The position numbers were made by a program, and so were the translations under genes. This document shows positions 52,266-62,500 of a stretch of DNA of 64,000 nucleotides, piece after piece (position 1 is the first letter of the stretch; each line of letters starts with the position of its first letter). The notes beneath the pieces are model-generated. The model saw only the letters and a list, made by a program, of their open reading frames with translations, had not been told where the DNA came from and did not search any database. The stretch covers positions 5,238,835 to 5,302,834 of the forward strand of contig OX387186.1 in NCBI GenBank assembly GCA_947561395.2, written 5' to 3'. Origin of the DNA: Buxus sempervirens. Taxonomy: Eukaryota > Streptophyta > Magnoliopsida > Buxales > Buxaceae.

Positions 52266-52358
52266 AGTCTTTTAAGTTAGAAATAGTTTGAGGGTTAAAG
52301 TAATCTCTAAGTTAGACTTAGCTTAAGGGTTAAAATTGCCTTTTAAGTTAGAACTAGT
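52266..52358. repeat. Tandem repeat (about 37 bp) that hosts the hAT insertion
   Basis: Units built on aagttagaaatagtttgagg then gttaaaat recur at 52275, 52311 and 52345. The third copy is split after gaactagt by the hAT element and resumes at 59759 (ttgatggttaaaatagtc). Confidence 0.75.
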
Positions 52359-52693
52359 CATGGTTCAAAGTATCGTATCGACGTGCCTTATCGGACGATC
52401 CAAAAATGGAAACGTATCGAGGATACGCACGGATACGGTCTAAAATGGTGGATACGGGTGGATACATAGATTAAAACCTATCCAGATAGAAAGATAAGTT
52501 AAAAATATGTTAAATAAACATGTTTCTAGCATTATAGGGCTATACAAATAATATCTATGCATTTTAGAAGCAAATAGGCATACGCGAAAATGAATGAAAA
52601 TTATAATAAAAGCTATAAAAGGTTAAATAAACCAATAAATAAGGTTAGAAAATTCATTCAAATAATATAAGTAACACACTAAGTTATTAACAC

Positions 52694-55368
52694 ATTTTTT
52701 TTTTGATCGGTAATGAAGAAATATATTAAAAAGAAGCTGAAAACAGAGTACAATGCTGTACACCAAAGGTGTACAATACCCTCATCCCCTCCCCATCCTT
52801 ACAAATCATTGAAATCTTTACACATTAATACATCATGACATTTCAATCCCTTACAAGATTCCACAGCAGACGCCCAATAAAGGATAAGATTAAGAGAGTA
52901 TTTGAAAAGGGCATCCCGAGATCTTTCCTTATTCTCAAAAATCCTGTTGTTTCGTTCCTTCCAAACTGCCCACATCACTGCCCCTGGTGTTAACCGCCAA
53001 AAGACCTTGAAAGGAGAGTCTCCTTTTGAGATCTTCCAACATAAAAGAAGCTGAGAAACACCTTGAGGCTGGACCCAAGCAACACCAAACCTGGCTAAGA
53101 ACTCATTACAAACTCCACTTGTGATTGGGCAATGAATGAGGAGATGATTGACTGACTCCGCATCCGCTCTACAAAGGCTACATCTATTAGGGAGCTGCCA
53201 GCCTCTCTTCATCAGATTATCCAAAGTCAAAATTTTCTCCAGCATCGCTGTTCACATAAAGAACCCTACCTTTGATGGGAGTAAAGGTTGCCATAACAGA
53301 TTGTGGACCTTGAAATTAAGATTCCGCTTACTAATAAACCCATATAGGCTCTTCACGGAGAAAACCCCATCACTGCTCCTTGACCATCTCATAACGTCTT
53401 GATGAGAACCAAAATCCTTTCCATTGATGCACTCCAGAAATTGGGACAAGTCTTCCAATTCCCAATCAAACATACCTCTTCTGAACTGCAAATTCCATTG
53501 TATGCCTCCCACTCCTTGGGAGTACAGGTCTGCAACAAAGGCATGAGGGGCTGAAGATATATTATAAAGTGTAGAAAATTGCTCCTTGAGAGCTCCACCA
53601 GAGCACCAAGGATCCAACCAAAACTTAACCCTATCTCCCCTCCCCACCTGAAACTTCACTCCTGCCTCAACCAGGGGAGACAATCTGCATATGGGCCTCC
53701 ATAAGCTGCAACCAATTCTCCCATTCACCTGGTCAGGAAGCCACCTTGTCTCATCATAGCCATACTTAACAACAATTAATTTCCTCCAAAGACTGTTTAC
53801 CTCCTGGCCAAACCGCCAACACCACTTCGCCAAAAGGGCTCTATTAAAAAGCCGCAGATTCCTTATACCCAAGCCACCATACTCTTTTGGGTTACAAACC
53901 TCCTTCCAAGAAACCAGATGATAATTACTGGACTCCTCCCCTCCTGCCCATAAGAAGTTCTTCTGTAACTTCTCAATGGCCTCCAGCACTGAAATCGGAG
54001 CTAATAAAACAGAGAGCATATAAGTTGGGTGGTTAGATAAAGCACTCTTGATCAAGACTGTCTTACTCCCTTTCGATAAAAGACTCCCCTTCTAAGCCGA
54101 CAACTTCTTTTTCATCCTCGATATTGTTGGTTCCCAAATTAATTTGGATTTAAAAGACGCCCCAATAGGAATTCCGAGATAAGAAGTAGGAAAAGACCCC
54201 AAACGACACCCCAAGAGACCACAGAAAATAGAGGAATTTCCACTTCCTCCAACATCAAAAAGCTCGCTTTTCTGAAAATTCACTCTCAAACCCGATAGCG
54301 CTTCAAAGCAATTCAGGATAGATCTCACCACAAGAAGTTGAGAGGCTTGCGCCTTGCAAAAGAGCATAGCATCATCTGCAAAAAGTAAATGAGAGATGGA
54401 TAAAGAGCCTCCTCCCACCTTCACCCCTTCAATAAGCTCCATATTTTCCGCCCTAGCAACCAATCGACTGAGAGCTTCCATAACCAGCAAGAAGAGTAAG
54501 GGGGAAAGGGGATCTCCTTGTCTCAGACCCCGAGATGACCGAAAGAAACCAGCCGCCACTCCATTAACCAAAACAGAGAAAGATGCTGAAGAGACGCAGG
54601 TTTCCATCCAAGATCTCCATTTGGCCCCGAATCCCATCCTCCTCATAATGTACCATAAAAACTTCCAATTCACATGATCGTATGCCTTCTCAATATCCAA
54701 CTTGCAAAGAATCCCATTAACACCCTCCCTTTGAATGGAGTCCACACATTCACTAACAATCAAAACACCATCCAAAATTTGCCTCCCCCCTATAAATGCA
54801 TTTTGATAAGGAGAAATAACATCCGAAAGCACCTCCCTCAATCTTTTAGCAAGAACTTTAGAAATGATTTTATAGAAACTCCCCACCAAACTAATGGGCC
54901 GATAATCTCTCAATGATGCAGCACCTTCCTTCTTAGGAATGAGGGAAATAAAAGTGGCATTCAAACTCCTTTCAAAATGAGATGAATTATAAAATTCTTG
55001 AACTGCTCTCATGAAATCCGCCCGGATGTGGCCCCAACAAAGCTTGTAGAATTTGATTGTAAACCCATCCGGCCCCGGGGCCTTATCACCCTCCAACTCC
55101 TTGATAACCTCCAACACCTCTTCTTCCCCCAATTGCCTTTCCAACGTATCCCTGTGATAATCTGAAATCAAGTCAAACTCCATACCATCCAGCAGAGGTC
55201 TAACATGAACTTTCTCTATGAAAAGGTCTTCAAAGTAAGCTGCTACCGCCTTCTTAATTTCATCTTGCTCAAGCAATAGGGACCCATCCACCTCCAAGTG
55301 GTCAATGGAATTAGCTCTCCCTCTAGCTGAGGCCATCCTATGGAAAAAACCTGTATTTTTATCACCAG
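52694..55368 (-). mobile_element. 5'-truncated LINE nested in the hAT
   Basis: A 2675-bp insertion flanked by the perfect 16-bp duplication actaagttattaacac (52678-52693 and 55369-55384). The minus-strand 3' end is a poly(A) tail, seen as a T tract at 52695. The 5' end starts inside ORF2, at SGDKNTGFFHRM, so the endonuclease domain is missing. Truncation at the 5' end with long target duplications is the hallmark of target-primed reverse transcription. Confidence 0.95.
52799..55366 (-). pseudogene. LINE ORF2 (RT to zinc-binding domain), two nonsense codons
   Basis: One continuous frame encodes the RT domain with KAPGPDGFTIKFYK, CKLDIEKAYDHVNWKFL, SSRGLRQGDPLSPLLFLL and the catalytic FADD (54371-54382). 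Then come the thumb (SYLGIPIGASFKSKLIW) and the C-terminal zinc-binding module (CSLCRADAESVNHLLIHC). The frame has a TAG at 54092-54094 and a TGA at 53252-53254. Family alignment expects Trp at both, so each is a single G-to-A change. There are no frameshifts, so this is the best-preserved LINE in the window, though lacking the endonuclease. Confidence 0.93.
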
Positions 55369-55516
55369 ACTAAGTTATTAACACTTAAAACATCAAAATC
55401 AACAATAAATTACTATCATGATTCATAACACAACATTCTCCATAATCCATTACATAAAAATAGGTGGTTTCAAAATCTAAACATAAAAAGCTACTTCATG
55501 GTCCCTAATATCTTCT

Positions 55517-58500
55517 TCAATGCCAGAAGGAGTGACGTGCAGGTTCATCTTCAGCTTCTTCATAATCGGCCAATGGCACGTTATGCGTGCGCTGAACATG
55601 CTGACAATAAGAAGCCCAATCCATATAATTTCGATACCATGCTTCATACTCCCTTCTAAATTGCTGATACTGTGCTGAAGTAGGCCTATAGTAACCCCCA
55701 ACATTACCACCATAGTGACCATACTGATCCATCTGCTGCCCATAAGATGATGATCCCTCCTGGCCATACCCATAGCCTGTATGCTCATAACCATATCCAT
55801 AACTAGACTGATAAGATGATCCTCCCTGGCCATAACCATAATCATATGAAGAAGATGACCTCTCCTGGGTACGCCCAAAAGACGACGACCTCGACCCTGA
55901 ATTTGGTCCACCTCCAAATATGCCTGAAAGACCCACATTAATCAAGTCTATTCCTTGTGTAATGGCATCTAAATTATGTCCACGTGGCATCATCACATCA
56001 TCGTGTTCTGATCCCGGTGCTGGATGGCCTCCACGTCGTTTTTGATGGTAAAGATTATGAATGGAAGGAGGATGTCCCCTATGGCCACTACCATGATCAT
56101 ACTGCTGCTGTTGCTCCTCAGCCTCCTCTGTAATGTGAATACCACCACCATAACCACTACCAGTACCACCCTGTGGTGGACTTGGTGGTGATGAAGGACT
56201 CTCACGACGTCCAACATCATCATCGTCGTCACTTTCATAGCCATCATCTCCATCATCATCAACATCATTAGGAGGATCACGACCCACTCCAGTATTACTG
56301 CTGCTCACCCCAGCTCGACTACTCCCTGCAGCTCTAGTATTTCCTCCTCCTTCATCATCACTAAATCTGTTGACCAAGTTTGCCACATAGCTACTTGGTC
56401 TTGTAGGCCTCCCCTCATCATCTAATTCATCGAGCACTACCTCCTCTGGATTATCCAACCACTCCGTGAGTAGCTCATCTGCATCTTCATCAAATATGTG
56501 TGCAAGGTCAATCGGCCTAAACTCGCCCTCCCCCCTTCTGCTTTGCTTTTGAAGATGTCGTATCTTTAGCCTCATGTTGTAGTGCACAAAAACCAGCTTC
56601 TCCAACTTTGCATAACTCAAACGGTTCCGCACTTTAGTGTGGATGAGAGAAAAAGTGCTCCAGTTTCTTTCACATCCACTGGATGAAACCGTCTGTGATA
56701 AAAGTCTTAGTGCAATTCTTCTCAAATTTGATGCATCGGTTCCATACAAGAACCACCACTCAGCTGCAGAAATAACAAAAAAAAAAAAAAATGAATTCCT
56801 CCCACATGCAAATTATACAATTTACTTGAACAATGAAAATAAGTATTTTCATTGTTTAATTTCTATTACCTGGCTCACATGTAGTCCGTGCCCTAATAGC
56901 GGCTGGATCTCCAAAACCATACATAGCATCTCTAAATGTTTTCTCCTATTAAAAAAAACATTGTTAGTGATTGTCCATTACAAAAAATAATAAGTAAATA
57001 ATTTTTAAAATTCTTAATTCCTAAATCACCTCACTGAGTGCTTTACTGGCACGCTCTGGATCCCTTTCCAATCTCAACATTACCCTTCTGAATGAACTCA
57101 CTAATTCCGTATCGTCCCCAAGATTTTCAGTGTAATGATACGCCGGGTGGAGGTAAAATGCTAATTCAATAAAAAAAATTAGTAACTTATTCAAGATAGG
57201 AAGTAGACAATTGGAAACAAATTTACGTATATTACCTGCACGGTGGATGTCCTGAATAAGCTGCTTCTTACATCTTTTATCAATAATTGCACAATACATC
57301 TCTTGATCATCAGGAGCAGCTTGGGCAATAGCAAGCTTAGACCTTCTAATAGCTTCATATAGATAACCTATTGTGGCTTGCTTTTCTCCATTCATAACTT
57401 TCAACACTTTCACAAGAGGATCATGTATTTCAGCTACCAATCGTCCATTCTTCCAAAAAGTGTTATTTAGAACAATATCCTCAACCTTTTTTCCAACAAC
57501 ATCCTGTCTTTGTCGACATTCTTGCCACTTATCTGATAAAAACATTCTTCTCAATCCAGCCTTTTCAGACATAATACTATTAATTGGAATGAAATTTGTG
57601 GCAAATCTTGTAAGACCGGGCCTAAGCAGCTTCCCTTTGGTGTGTTCTCTCATTAGGCTAAGTACCCAGTTGTGGTTGTAAATAAAGTTTGTCAATCTCC
57701 TTGCTTTTTCAATCACACCTTTCACCTTCTTCTTCTGACCAAAATCATGGAGCATAAGATCAATACAATGTGCCACACACGGGGTCCAGTACAGATGTTT
57801 CCTTTTCTCCATCAACAACTCCCCTGCTTTCTTGTATGAAGATTGGTTGTCAGTAACAATCTGTACAATGTATTTTTCACTAATCTCCTCTACAACATCA
57901 TCCATCAATTTGAACATATACTGATGGTCCTTGATTTTGTCAGAAGCATTAACTGACTTGTGAAAAATTGCTCTTCCATCACAGTAAACCAAAAAGTTAA
58001 TGATCGATAGCTTGGTAGGCCCAGTCCAACCATCACACATCAAAGTTACACCATAAGTATCCCATTTCTTCATAAATGACTTTATGTAAGTCTGTATCTC
58101 ATCCACTTCTGCATCCAGTATAGGGCCTGTGATCTCATATGGAGCGGGACCTTTAATCCCTGGTCCAGCCCTAGCGATCTCATCAATCATCGTCTGATAG
58201 TAGGGGTTATTTGCAGCATTTGGTGCGATATTGCTGTTAATTAACCACCTACCAATGGCTTGCTTTACATTCTTTGCCCATTTTCCTGGATGCCAAGAAT
58301 CCTTCAACCTAATTTGCTTCGCATCTCTATTTCGATAAATTGAAGGATCCATCTCTTCTATAGTAGATCCCCTTGACTTCTTTCTTGGCTGCTTCGGCCT
58401 TCCAACCATTTTGTCAAAAGCTTCTCTGACACTTGTACTGCGCATCAAACCAGCTCCATGACGATGCCCCCCAGAACTAGCTCTACCTGGTGTGCAACCA

Positions 58501-58676
58501 ACATCTATAGAATCTACACTCCTTCTCCCTCCTTGCTCTCTGTAATGAATGTCTGCAATTGATCTTCTCATTGCTTCATCAACATCTTCTCTTTCCTCTC
58601 GTATCATAACATCTTCTCGATCAGAATCATCATCAGAAAAATCATCATCAACACAGATGCCCTTTCCCCTATCCAT
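55517..58676 (-). CDS. hAT transposase with Tyr/Gly-rich tail
   Basis: Four minus-strand exons, 58676-57236, 57160-57030, 56945-56870 and 56763-55517, join in frame to 964 aa. The N-terminus is acidic. The RNase H-like core carries D215 (LMCDGWTGP) and D276 (QIVTDN), a DUF659-type region, a C300-x2-H303 element and E581 in SGCERNWSTFS. A dimerisation segment follows (HTKVRNRLSYAKLEKLVFV). After residue about 640 comes a disordered acidic, Gly- and Gln-rich tail with Tyr/Gly repeats at about 854-909. The spliced frame is intact from Met 58676, but the upstream BED finger is out of frame, so DNA binding may be lost. It could be expressed as a truncated protein or be a recently dead transposase. 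Confidence 0.85.
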
Positions 58677-58705
58677 CCGTGTTGCCCTCCCAGCTAACCT
58701 ATCTC

Positions 58706-58976
58706 TTAAAGCATCTCTATAGTAATTTTCTCCTTCTCCTTCCTTGCAGCTCTAAGATGCTCACTCATAGCCCTGGAAACTTCTACAGGACAACAGTAGC
58801 ACTTCTCTACATTCGGATTCCCACCAGCAAGATGATGTTTCAATCTAGTAACTCCACCCCCTCTAAGTTCCTTCTGAAAATAATTGCATCTTGTATGCAA
58901 TCTATTGCCTCCAATCATCTCTCCGTGTTGCTAACTGACGTCTAGCCCTTTCCGTTGTTGCGTTTTAGGTGCCATA
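58706..58976 (-). pseudogene. BED zinc finger of the hAT transposase, frameshifted
   Basis: The start MAPKTQQ at 58976 soon shifts frame; ERARRQLATRRDDW reads in a different frame. The finger itself (GGGVTRLKHHLAGGNPNVEKC) reads in another frame that ends at a TAA at 58706. A further one-base shift in the purine tract near 58740-58760 would be needed to reach the main ORF. The usual CNYC is CNYF here, so one zinc-binding cysteine is lost. Confidence 0.75.
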
Positions 58977-59758
58977 TCTACAAAATAATTAAAACTATAT
59001 CAAGAAACATGCAAATGGCATCACCAACCTCTCTTAGGAAAAAAAGTGGAACCAAAATATCAAATTTGATAAAAATATAATATTATTTTCCTATATTTTT
59101 AATTAATATTCAACAAAACAATTATTAAAAATAATTTTATTAATGAAAAAAATGCAAGAATCATAGGGAGGATAGATCAACCCCACGTGCATCTCATATA
59201 AAAAATTGAACACAAACCGTTAAGGTTTGTATAATTTTTTTCAAAAAAAATTAGAATTTTCGTCACTTTTTTCCATATTGCAAAAAAATTTCGATTTTTT
59301 TACTTAAAAACGCAATTTCAATCTATGGATTTCACTTGAAATCCATAGATTCATACAAAAGATTGTTAAATAATGCTTAAATATGAAAATACAAAGATTT
59401 AGAATGAAAAAAATCGAAAACCTAACATATCTCTCGAAAATGTTGACGAATCTTACTTTAGTTGTTTGATTCGTTGTTCAAACTTGTTTTGAACAATTTA
59501 AACCACCAATTAGGTCGAAAATGGGTTATAATCAAGGGGGTTTGACAAATTTTTGAAAGGATTTCGAACGAAGGAACTATTTGGGTTCTTGTAAGAGGGC
59601 TGTTTTCACGTTTTTGAACGTGACAGGCTATTTATAAGGACTGTATTGATCGATACAGTCCCTGTATCGACTGTATCCAGTCGATACAATCGCGATACAT
59701 ACAAGAGTATCGTGCGTATCGAGCGATACGGCACAATACTTAGTACCCTGGAACTAGT

Positions 59759-61341: not shown

Positions 61342-62500
61342 GGATTTTTATTTAGAGTAAAAGGTAAACTAAAGGTTTTATAATAGGTAAATCAAAGATT
61401 GTAGTTTGAGGGAAGATGCATATGTAAACGTTTTAAGAAAATAGTAGGCAGGTAGGAATAGGCTAACGATTATTGCTGAGCAAACAGGAACTTTCATGAT
61501 GCTATATTTCAGAATGGTTTGGGATGCATTATCAATTCTATGTCTGACTTTTCATTTATTTATTTATTTATTAATTCTATGTCTGCACCTTCATCGTTAT
61601 ACTATAAAATATTGCTTGATGATAGAGCAAAGCTTGAGGAAGTGAATGTGTAAGTTTCCTACCTTGTATGGTCTCTAATATTCACTTAAATTTCTGTTTT
61701 GTCATCTTTTAAACCAAGATTTGTAAGTTTTCTATTAGAGTTAGAACTATATCTATAATTATGGTGTTGAATAGATCATAGATGTAAGATTATTCTCAGA
61801 GGTTTTCTATTTGGAATAGATCTCTATTATGATAGGAATTATTTATTTAAGAAATGTATGATTTCTATCCGTGCAAGAAATGTCAACGAGATAAAACTGT
61901 GGAAAAGGTAAGAAATTGGGTGGACATTGATGTTAATAGGCTAACGATTATTGCTGCCATATTTTTTTCTTTCATATTCGTTTATTTAAACAAACAAAGC
62001 GCTTAAGATGAGGTTTTGAGATAATCCTATTGGAAATAATCAGACGATAAGAGTAGAAGGGATAATAACCTCTAAACAATAATATATCAGAATAGTTATT
62101 ATTTACAATTGATCTTTGAAAGGATAATAGCCTCTAATTAAAAGAATAGAGTTATTATTTGTTATGATAATCCTATTGGAAATAGTAAGACAATAATAAC
62201 TTTATAAAAGAATTAAAAAATAAAGATTTAAGACAATAATCTTATGTAGTGATTTCACTCAGTCCGATATTTTTGTAAATGAATTTAAATAATCGAGAGT
62301 TTTACTTTAAGGAGATTTAAACTAATCTATTGCTTCCATATTTGTTTCTTTCATATTCGTTTATTTAAACAAAGAGATTAAAATGAGGTTTTGAGATAAT
62401 CCTATTGGAAATAATCAGATGATAATAGGAAATAAAGAATTGAAAGAAATAGGTAATTCCACTACACCAATTAAAGCAACGAATCTAACTGGTAATCAGA
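61342..62500. other. Possible Helitron interior, noncoding
   Basis: AT-rich with diverged direct repeats. The block tttcatattcgtttatttaaac then gaggttttgagataatccta appears at 61971 and 62349, and variants of aatcctattggaaataatcaga at 62024, 62168 and 62397. No gene was seen. Confidence 0.5.

Follow-up and report, generated by a model that had tools for sequence, protein, structure and literature searches.

Introduction

Transposases of the hAT superfamily are usually described as finishing at the dimerisation region, which an excerpt of PMC3499209 places at the C-terminus; the same excerpt describes the hAT-derived SLEEPER genes, in which a BED finger is combined with this C-terminal hAT dimerisation domain. 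The Ac transposase oligomerises at high concentration into a potentially inactive form (cited in PMC10288884, as excerpted), and overproduction inhibition has been discussed for mariner elements and was not detected for Mos1 (excerpt of PMC3419177). In rice, 131 of 201 prion-like genes are transposon or retrotransposon genes (Garai et al. 2021, PMC8350573); the main text of that paper contains no word starting with 'hat', and hAT elements are unnamed there. Our literature search found no paper combining 'hAT transposase' and 'prion-like', and none of the titles and abstract beginnings that were listed named a tail of the kind described below. Prion-like plant transposon proteins are thus already in print as a class, and such a tail on a hAT transposase is a variant of a known theme, if a somewhat surprising one.

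Here we examine a hAT element in a 64,000-nucleotide stretch of the Buxus sempervirens genome (contig OX387186.1), the whole of which is referred to as the window. The element resembles other plant hAT transposons in its 8-bp duplications, its short inverted ends, which start CAGGG/CATGG, its DUF659 core and its C-terminal dimerisation region. It departs from the usual description in what follows that region: at least three lineages of this genome carry tails of approximately 350-400 residues with a common end module.

A long tail in frame with the dimerisation region

The transposase gene lies in an element (Table 1) flanked by a perfect 8-bp duplication, a hallmark of the hAT superfamily, and bounded by short terminal inverted repeats (CAGGGTACTAAGTAT and CATGGTTCAAAGTAT) that match at 12 of 15 positions when compared by eye. 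The LINE fragment nested in it, whose coding sequence falls in more than one frame, has 16-bp duplications of its own (52678-52693 and 55369-55384) and is therefore younger than the element. An origin of the tail from this LINE, whether directly or through read-through, was ruled out, since the LINE is situated 3' of the stop codon.

Table 1. Coordinates of the hAT element, its transposase gene and associated features in the window.
Feature	Position	Strand	Basis
hAT element, 7,392 bp including nested LINE; ends CAGGG..CCATG (coding orientation)	52359..59750	-	TIR-like termini; same octamer on either side
8-bp target-site duplication, GAACTAGT on + strand	52351..52358	.	Identical to 59751-59758
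8-bp target-site duplication, other side	59751..59758	.	Same octamer as 52351-52358
LINE fragment inside the hAT element, 3' of transposase stop	52694..55368	-	RVT_1 E 7.3e-36 and 16-bp duplications
Seven TATCG/CGATA motifs at element 5' end	59651..59728	.	Motif count
Four more TATCG/CGATA motifs, other end	52371-52419	.	Motif count
N-terminal transposase part, degenerate BED finger	58709..58990	-	zf-BED below cut-off, E 0.064, 13.7 bits
DUF659 domain	57696..58148	-	PF04937 E 2.5e-53
Inferred exon 2	57030..57160	-	GT-AG junctions picked by eye; joining keeps frame
Inferred exon 3	56870..56945	-	GT-AG junctions picked by eye; joining keeps frame
Last exon: dimerisation region, whole tail and stop in one open frame	55517..56763	-	ORF reading
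hAT dimerisation region, exon residues 1-67	56564..56764	-	PF05699 E 3.3e-10
Tail part 1 (residues 68-185): linker, acidic, with 28% Asp+Glu	56210..56563	-	Composition
Tail part 2 (residues 186-295): rich in Ser/Pro/Gly; contains basic patch and short hydrophobic island	55880..56209	-	Composition, alignment
Tail part 3 (residues 296-360): repeats rich in Tyr/Gly/Ser/Gln	55685..55879	-	Composition, permutations
Tail part 4: C-terminal module, residues 361-415, Y-x6-Y-x3-Y-x5-W-x2-Y ... P-x-R-H-S	55520..55684	-	Alignment, shuffles

With splicing predicted from these junctions, the gene would read in the order BED finger, DUF659, dimerisation region and tail. The PF05699 match in the window copy scored 40.1 bits against a cut-off of 21.4, and a putative RNase H-like catalytic core is indicated by the DUF659 match (E 2.5e-53). 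The N-terminal part of the window copy contains an in-frame stop and is read in a different frame from DUF659; in a sister copy this N-terminal part is open throughout. Given the stop and the frame change so near its start, the window copy is probably dead.

Beyond the dimerisation region, 348 residues run uninterrupted to the stop, so that the figure of about 320 disordered residues given in the first-pass annotation was roughly right as to length. The tail might instead be spliced out of the mRNA and so be missing from the mature product, a reading that we find barely credible: a single open exon of 1,247 bp holds both the tail and the dimerisation region, no intron is needed, and variants found in at least three copies of the exon lean silent (see below).

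Composition of the tail and its likeness to FUS-type domains

Residues 296-360 of the exon (55685-55879), in which the repeats SSYDYGYGQGG and EHTGYGYGQEG quoted in the first-pass annotation are indeed present, consist of 22% Tyr, 26% Gly, 17% Ser and 11% Gln. The richest 60-residue stretch of the frame is 82% Y/G/Q/S/N, compared with 53% in the runner-up among 229 stop-to-stop frames of at least 60 residues within the window. YG/GY dipeptides number 15 against a permuted mean of 7.3, and 7 of 10,000 permutations reach 15. The protein had been described as ending in these repeats, which are real, but its final 55 residues form a separate, Gly-free module after them. Recent microsatellite expansion was rejected as the origin of the region, tandem-repeat scores being no higher than 41 across 55400-56800.

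The tail as a whole has a net charge of -31, low hydrophobicity and 2 Lys in 348 residues. In a charge-hydropathy comparison, for which the constants of the Uversky line were taken as general background, the tail parts fell among disordered sequences, whereas the dimerisation region came out as ordered; the tail is predicted to be disordered. None of the Pfam models covers the tail at its cut-off. Searches of solved structures returned no significant relative of the tail (best E 0.11), and with the module alone the best E was 6.8. No relative was confirmed in viral, prokaryotic and plasmid collections, which are a weak guide for a plant element.

FET-type domains such as that of FUS belong to RNA-binding proteins. 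The tail is like them in its local Tyr/Gly/Ser/Gln composition and its [GS]Y[GSQ] motifs, and unlike them in that its Tyr/Gly part is shorter, stands in an acidic context and is attached to a DNA transposase. One explanation of the tail is therefore condensation of the FUS type, in which the Tyr/Gly/Gln/Ser part self-associates and either concentrates transposase on the element ends or sequesters it at high dose (overproduction inhibition). We regard this as rather unlikely. The composition and the Y/G alternation point towards it at the level of composition, as do the scarcity of Lys and the low hydrophobicity, but the whole tail is acidic and the Tyr/Gly part is just 65 residues long.

Recurrence of the tail within and between lineages

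We searched the genome (676.5 Mb, 247 contigs) with the last exon and obtained at least 113 matches (101 of 1,359 candidates scored), at least 30 of which, the window included, cover residues 1 or 2 to 414 or 415 of the 415-residue exon. The tail is thus not limited to a single copy, a point on which the first-pass annotation had itself made its claim depend, and the genome-wide matches ruled out a one-copy curiosity. Among 30 loci compared, 9 (the window locus among them) have the full exon open, another 2 have an open but shorter match, and the remaining 19 contain at least one stop. The 3' end of the element is present in all 29 sister loci at no more than 2 mismatches (exact in 26), with the LINE intervening in the window locus. 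When the 5' sides of four sister copies were inspected, three repeated the octamer of the 3' side, and the stretch inspected for the fourth did not show the element end. Two loci, L021 and L038, have an identical 16 bases of 3' flank and probably represent one insertion that was duplicated along with its surroundings.

A sister copy on contig C21 is 4,772 bp long and has terminal repeats as well as a perfect 8-bp duplication; with the splicing predicted here, its frames would encode a protein of 1,063 residues, tail included. The dimerisation region begins at residue 651. DUF659 and the dimerisation domain are above cut-off in this copy, and its BED finger scores 19.3 bits against a cut-off of 20.6.

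A DUF659 search of the same genome, in which 150 of 1,317 candidates were scored, brought up further families among the matches listed, and one downstream stretch each was examined for four that were chosen by hand (L089, L090, L091 and L092). L089, L090 and L091 continue for 384, 397 and approximately 405 residues past the dimerisation region, and all of these extensions are acidic, Tyr-rich and module-ended. L090 and L091 are close relatives, with Asp/Glu runs of unequal length; the L089 and L090 lineages are also related to each other, and their tails align along the whole length (z 43 with the module excluded). The net charge is -47 in L089 and -44 in L090, compared with -31 in the window, and each of these three tails has 25 Tyr. 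The motif [GS]Y[GSQ], however, is not equally frequent: it occurs 8 times in the window tail (a count reached by 2 of 5,000 permutations), 5 times in L090 (22 of 5,000) and 3 times in L089, where there is no excess (750 of 5,000). Judged from these sequences, what recurs between lineages is the end module, the acidity and the Tyr content, and the FUS-like spelling is family-specific. The likeness to FUS-type domains that had been proposed for the tail therefore stands for local composition and Y/G alternation and does not extend to the Tyr-Gly spelling, which is not conserved across lineages, and the lack of excess in L089 is a further point against condensation.

The L090 search, which scored 101 of 1,970 candidates, gave at least 103 matches, and the top ten rows are open and 99-100% identical over all 415 residues. 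So many near-identical open copies indicate that the L090/L091 family was probably active recently.

Apart from the module, the window tail aligns with those of the other lineages slightly better than its composition would give (2 and 7 of 1,000 shuffles). Identity between lineages is 27-29% just past the dimerisation region, as against 73% (over 52 residues) and 71% (over 17 residues) within it. A drop of this size would suit a passenger, that is, a fast-drifting low-complexity extension without function. We consider this quite unlikely, since three lineages have the same module in the same terminal position, and full length is kept both in the 30 or more matches to the window exon and in the first ten, nearly identical L090 matches.

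The densest Asp/Glu runs in the three lineages hold 14, 16 and 21 of 30 residues and lie beside Tyr-rich stretches, and a basic patch occupies the same alignment position across lineages. Such features could belong to a transcription or chromatin module, either an acidic and aromatic activation domain or, in the case of the patch, a nuclear import signal, through which the transposase would regulate its own or host genes. This too strikes us as improbable; the sole solved-structure match to the C-terminal module was not significant.

The DUF659 host-like genes have the same kind of core domains as the window element, as do SLEEPER genes (excerpt of PMC3499209), but the five readable loci of this kind (L059, L061, L062, L063 and L092, with exons read by eye) have short acidic ends and no Tyr/Gly part. 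At L060, L064 and L065 the stretch examined showed nothing clear past the dimerisation region, and these three stand outside the host-like count. We also sampled 16 loci of the plant hAT branch that we take to be Ac-like (the best eight, which are one near-identical family, and eight picked by hand, from a search that scored 150 of 2,045 candidates). With introns disregarded, all 16 stop 12-48 residues after the dimerisation match, in agreement with the earlier statement that hAT transposases usually end soon after dimerisation, whereas the window lineage has approximately 345 residues more. The sister copies, together with at least two other transposon families that have such a tail, indicate that the enzyme has genuinely inherited its tail.

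The shared C-terminal module

The module, which in the window copy comprises 55 Gly-free residues, stands at the very end of the protein in all three lineages, and these have in common the aligned residues Y, Y, Y, W and Y and the terminal P-x-R-H-S. In pairwise local alignments it scored z 10.4 between the window and L090 and z 20.0 between L089 and L090 (0 of 5,000 shuffles in either case), and z 4.2 between the window and L089 (11 of 5,000 shuffles). These pairwise shuffle tests were run after a profile search had scored no better than shuffles: a profile of 27 window-family modules gave 3.7 bits for L090, 3.7 for L091 and -15.8 for L089, compared with 9.0 for the top scorer among 5,002 shuffles or reversals. 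We therefore base homology of the module on the pairwise shuffle test taken together with the same end position and the collinear alignment. Helical amphipathicity, calculated with moment scale values taken as general background, drops before the Trp and climbs on either side of it, an effect that is clear in L089 and L090 but slight in the window, and the module may be a pair of short amphipathic helices, the chain turning ahead of the invariant Trp.

Evidence for constraint on the tail

To describe variation within the window family, single-base codon variants were counted in 50 copies, with gapped codons and codons more than one base off the commonest dropped and stops kept apart; the copies are related, and the p values below are nominal and uncorrected. 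The ratio of amino-acid changes to silent changes (N:S) in the tail was 261:76 for singletons, 81:17 for variants found in two copies and 100:58 for those in at least three. Between singletons and the last class the odds ratio was 2.0 (nominal p 0.0011), and amino-acid changes were depleted in the linker (p 0.0052) and in the Tyr/Gly part (64:15 among singletons vs. 11:10 in at least three copies, p 0.011), which argues against a passenger. No significant depletion was found within the window family for part 2 (p 0.58), the dimerisation region (33:11 vs. 13:9, p 0.26) or the module (33:10 vs. 13:4, p 1).

The undepleted module and the two-copy variants of the tail, in which amino-acid changes are likewise not depleted, count on the side of a passenger. 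An earlier count on 30 copies had given 184:45 for singletons, 40:20 for two copies and 44:34 for at least three, so that the two-copy class switched sides between the two counts. A recurrent C-to-T change can make independent events appear shared, and 9 stop variants in the tail are common to at least three copies; the shared class is thus not clean of decay or recurrent mutation.

Between the young and old subfamilies, represented by 8 and 7 hand-picked copies, dN/dS was 0.505 for the whole tail and 0.509 for the dimerisation region. By part, the values were 0.27 for the linker, 0.88 for part 2, 0.71 for the Tyr/Gly part and 0.54 for the module, and those for part 2 and the Tyr/Gly part again lean towards a passenger. 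Constraint on the tail is likely but weak and appears uneven by part, while conservation of the module, as far as these alignments go, is visible between lineages and not inside the window family. We infer that the tail is translated in active lineages.

Element ends and a possible role of the tail

In the C21 copy, the terminal 200 bp of the two ends together contain 19 TATCG/CGATA motifs, 15 of them in the first 200 bp, compared with a mean of 3.9 and a maximum of 13 in 2,000 first-order simulations. Dense motif clusters are typical of transposase-binding arrays, and by analogy the transposase may bind the TATCG motifs. The number of these motifs at the element ends also suits condensation, for which the dose-dependent assembly of the Ac transposase offers a precedent within hAT (excerpt of PMC10288884).

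The reading that we tentatively favour, at somewhat short of an even chance, is that the tail has been inherited and is translated with the transposase in an autonomous hAT lineage, that it is made up of a tether and an interaction module, and that it aids clustering or end pairing at the TATCG-rich ends. On this proposal a flexible, acidic, Tyr/Gly-rich tether of approximately 290 residues would bear the C-terminal module of approximately 50 residues, and the module would bind another transposase or a host partner. The tether would let transposases seated on the TATCG arrays at each end reach one another, and contact between these end-bound transposases would help to pair the ends of the element. 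Condensation could possibly add to such a tether mechanism.

A broader version would concern an entire branch of plant hAT transposons, which would have acquired and kept the module and a Tyr-rich disordered tether. The tether would gather transposase on element ends with many sites, perhaps in the form of a condensate that serves as a pairing aid at low dose and as a shut-off at high dose. We think this version unlikely; if it were true, a high-copy cut-and-paste element would have dose control built in. Should the tail control assembly, deletion of the module or change of the Tyr residues would provide a genetic handle on spread versus self-limitation. The occurrence of such tails also suggests that surveys of plant prion-like proteins pick up transposases unless these are masked.

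Two minor observations concern other parts of the window. The frame second in Y/G/Q/S/N content (53% of a 60-residue stretch) is a + strand frame of 420 amino acids from approximately 5864. At 61966-62428 there are two 88-nt direct repeats, 375 bases apart and 81% alike, a 33-nt part of which recurs for a third time between them.
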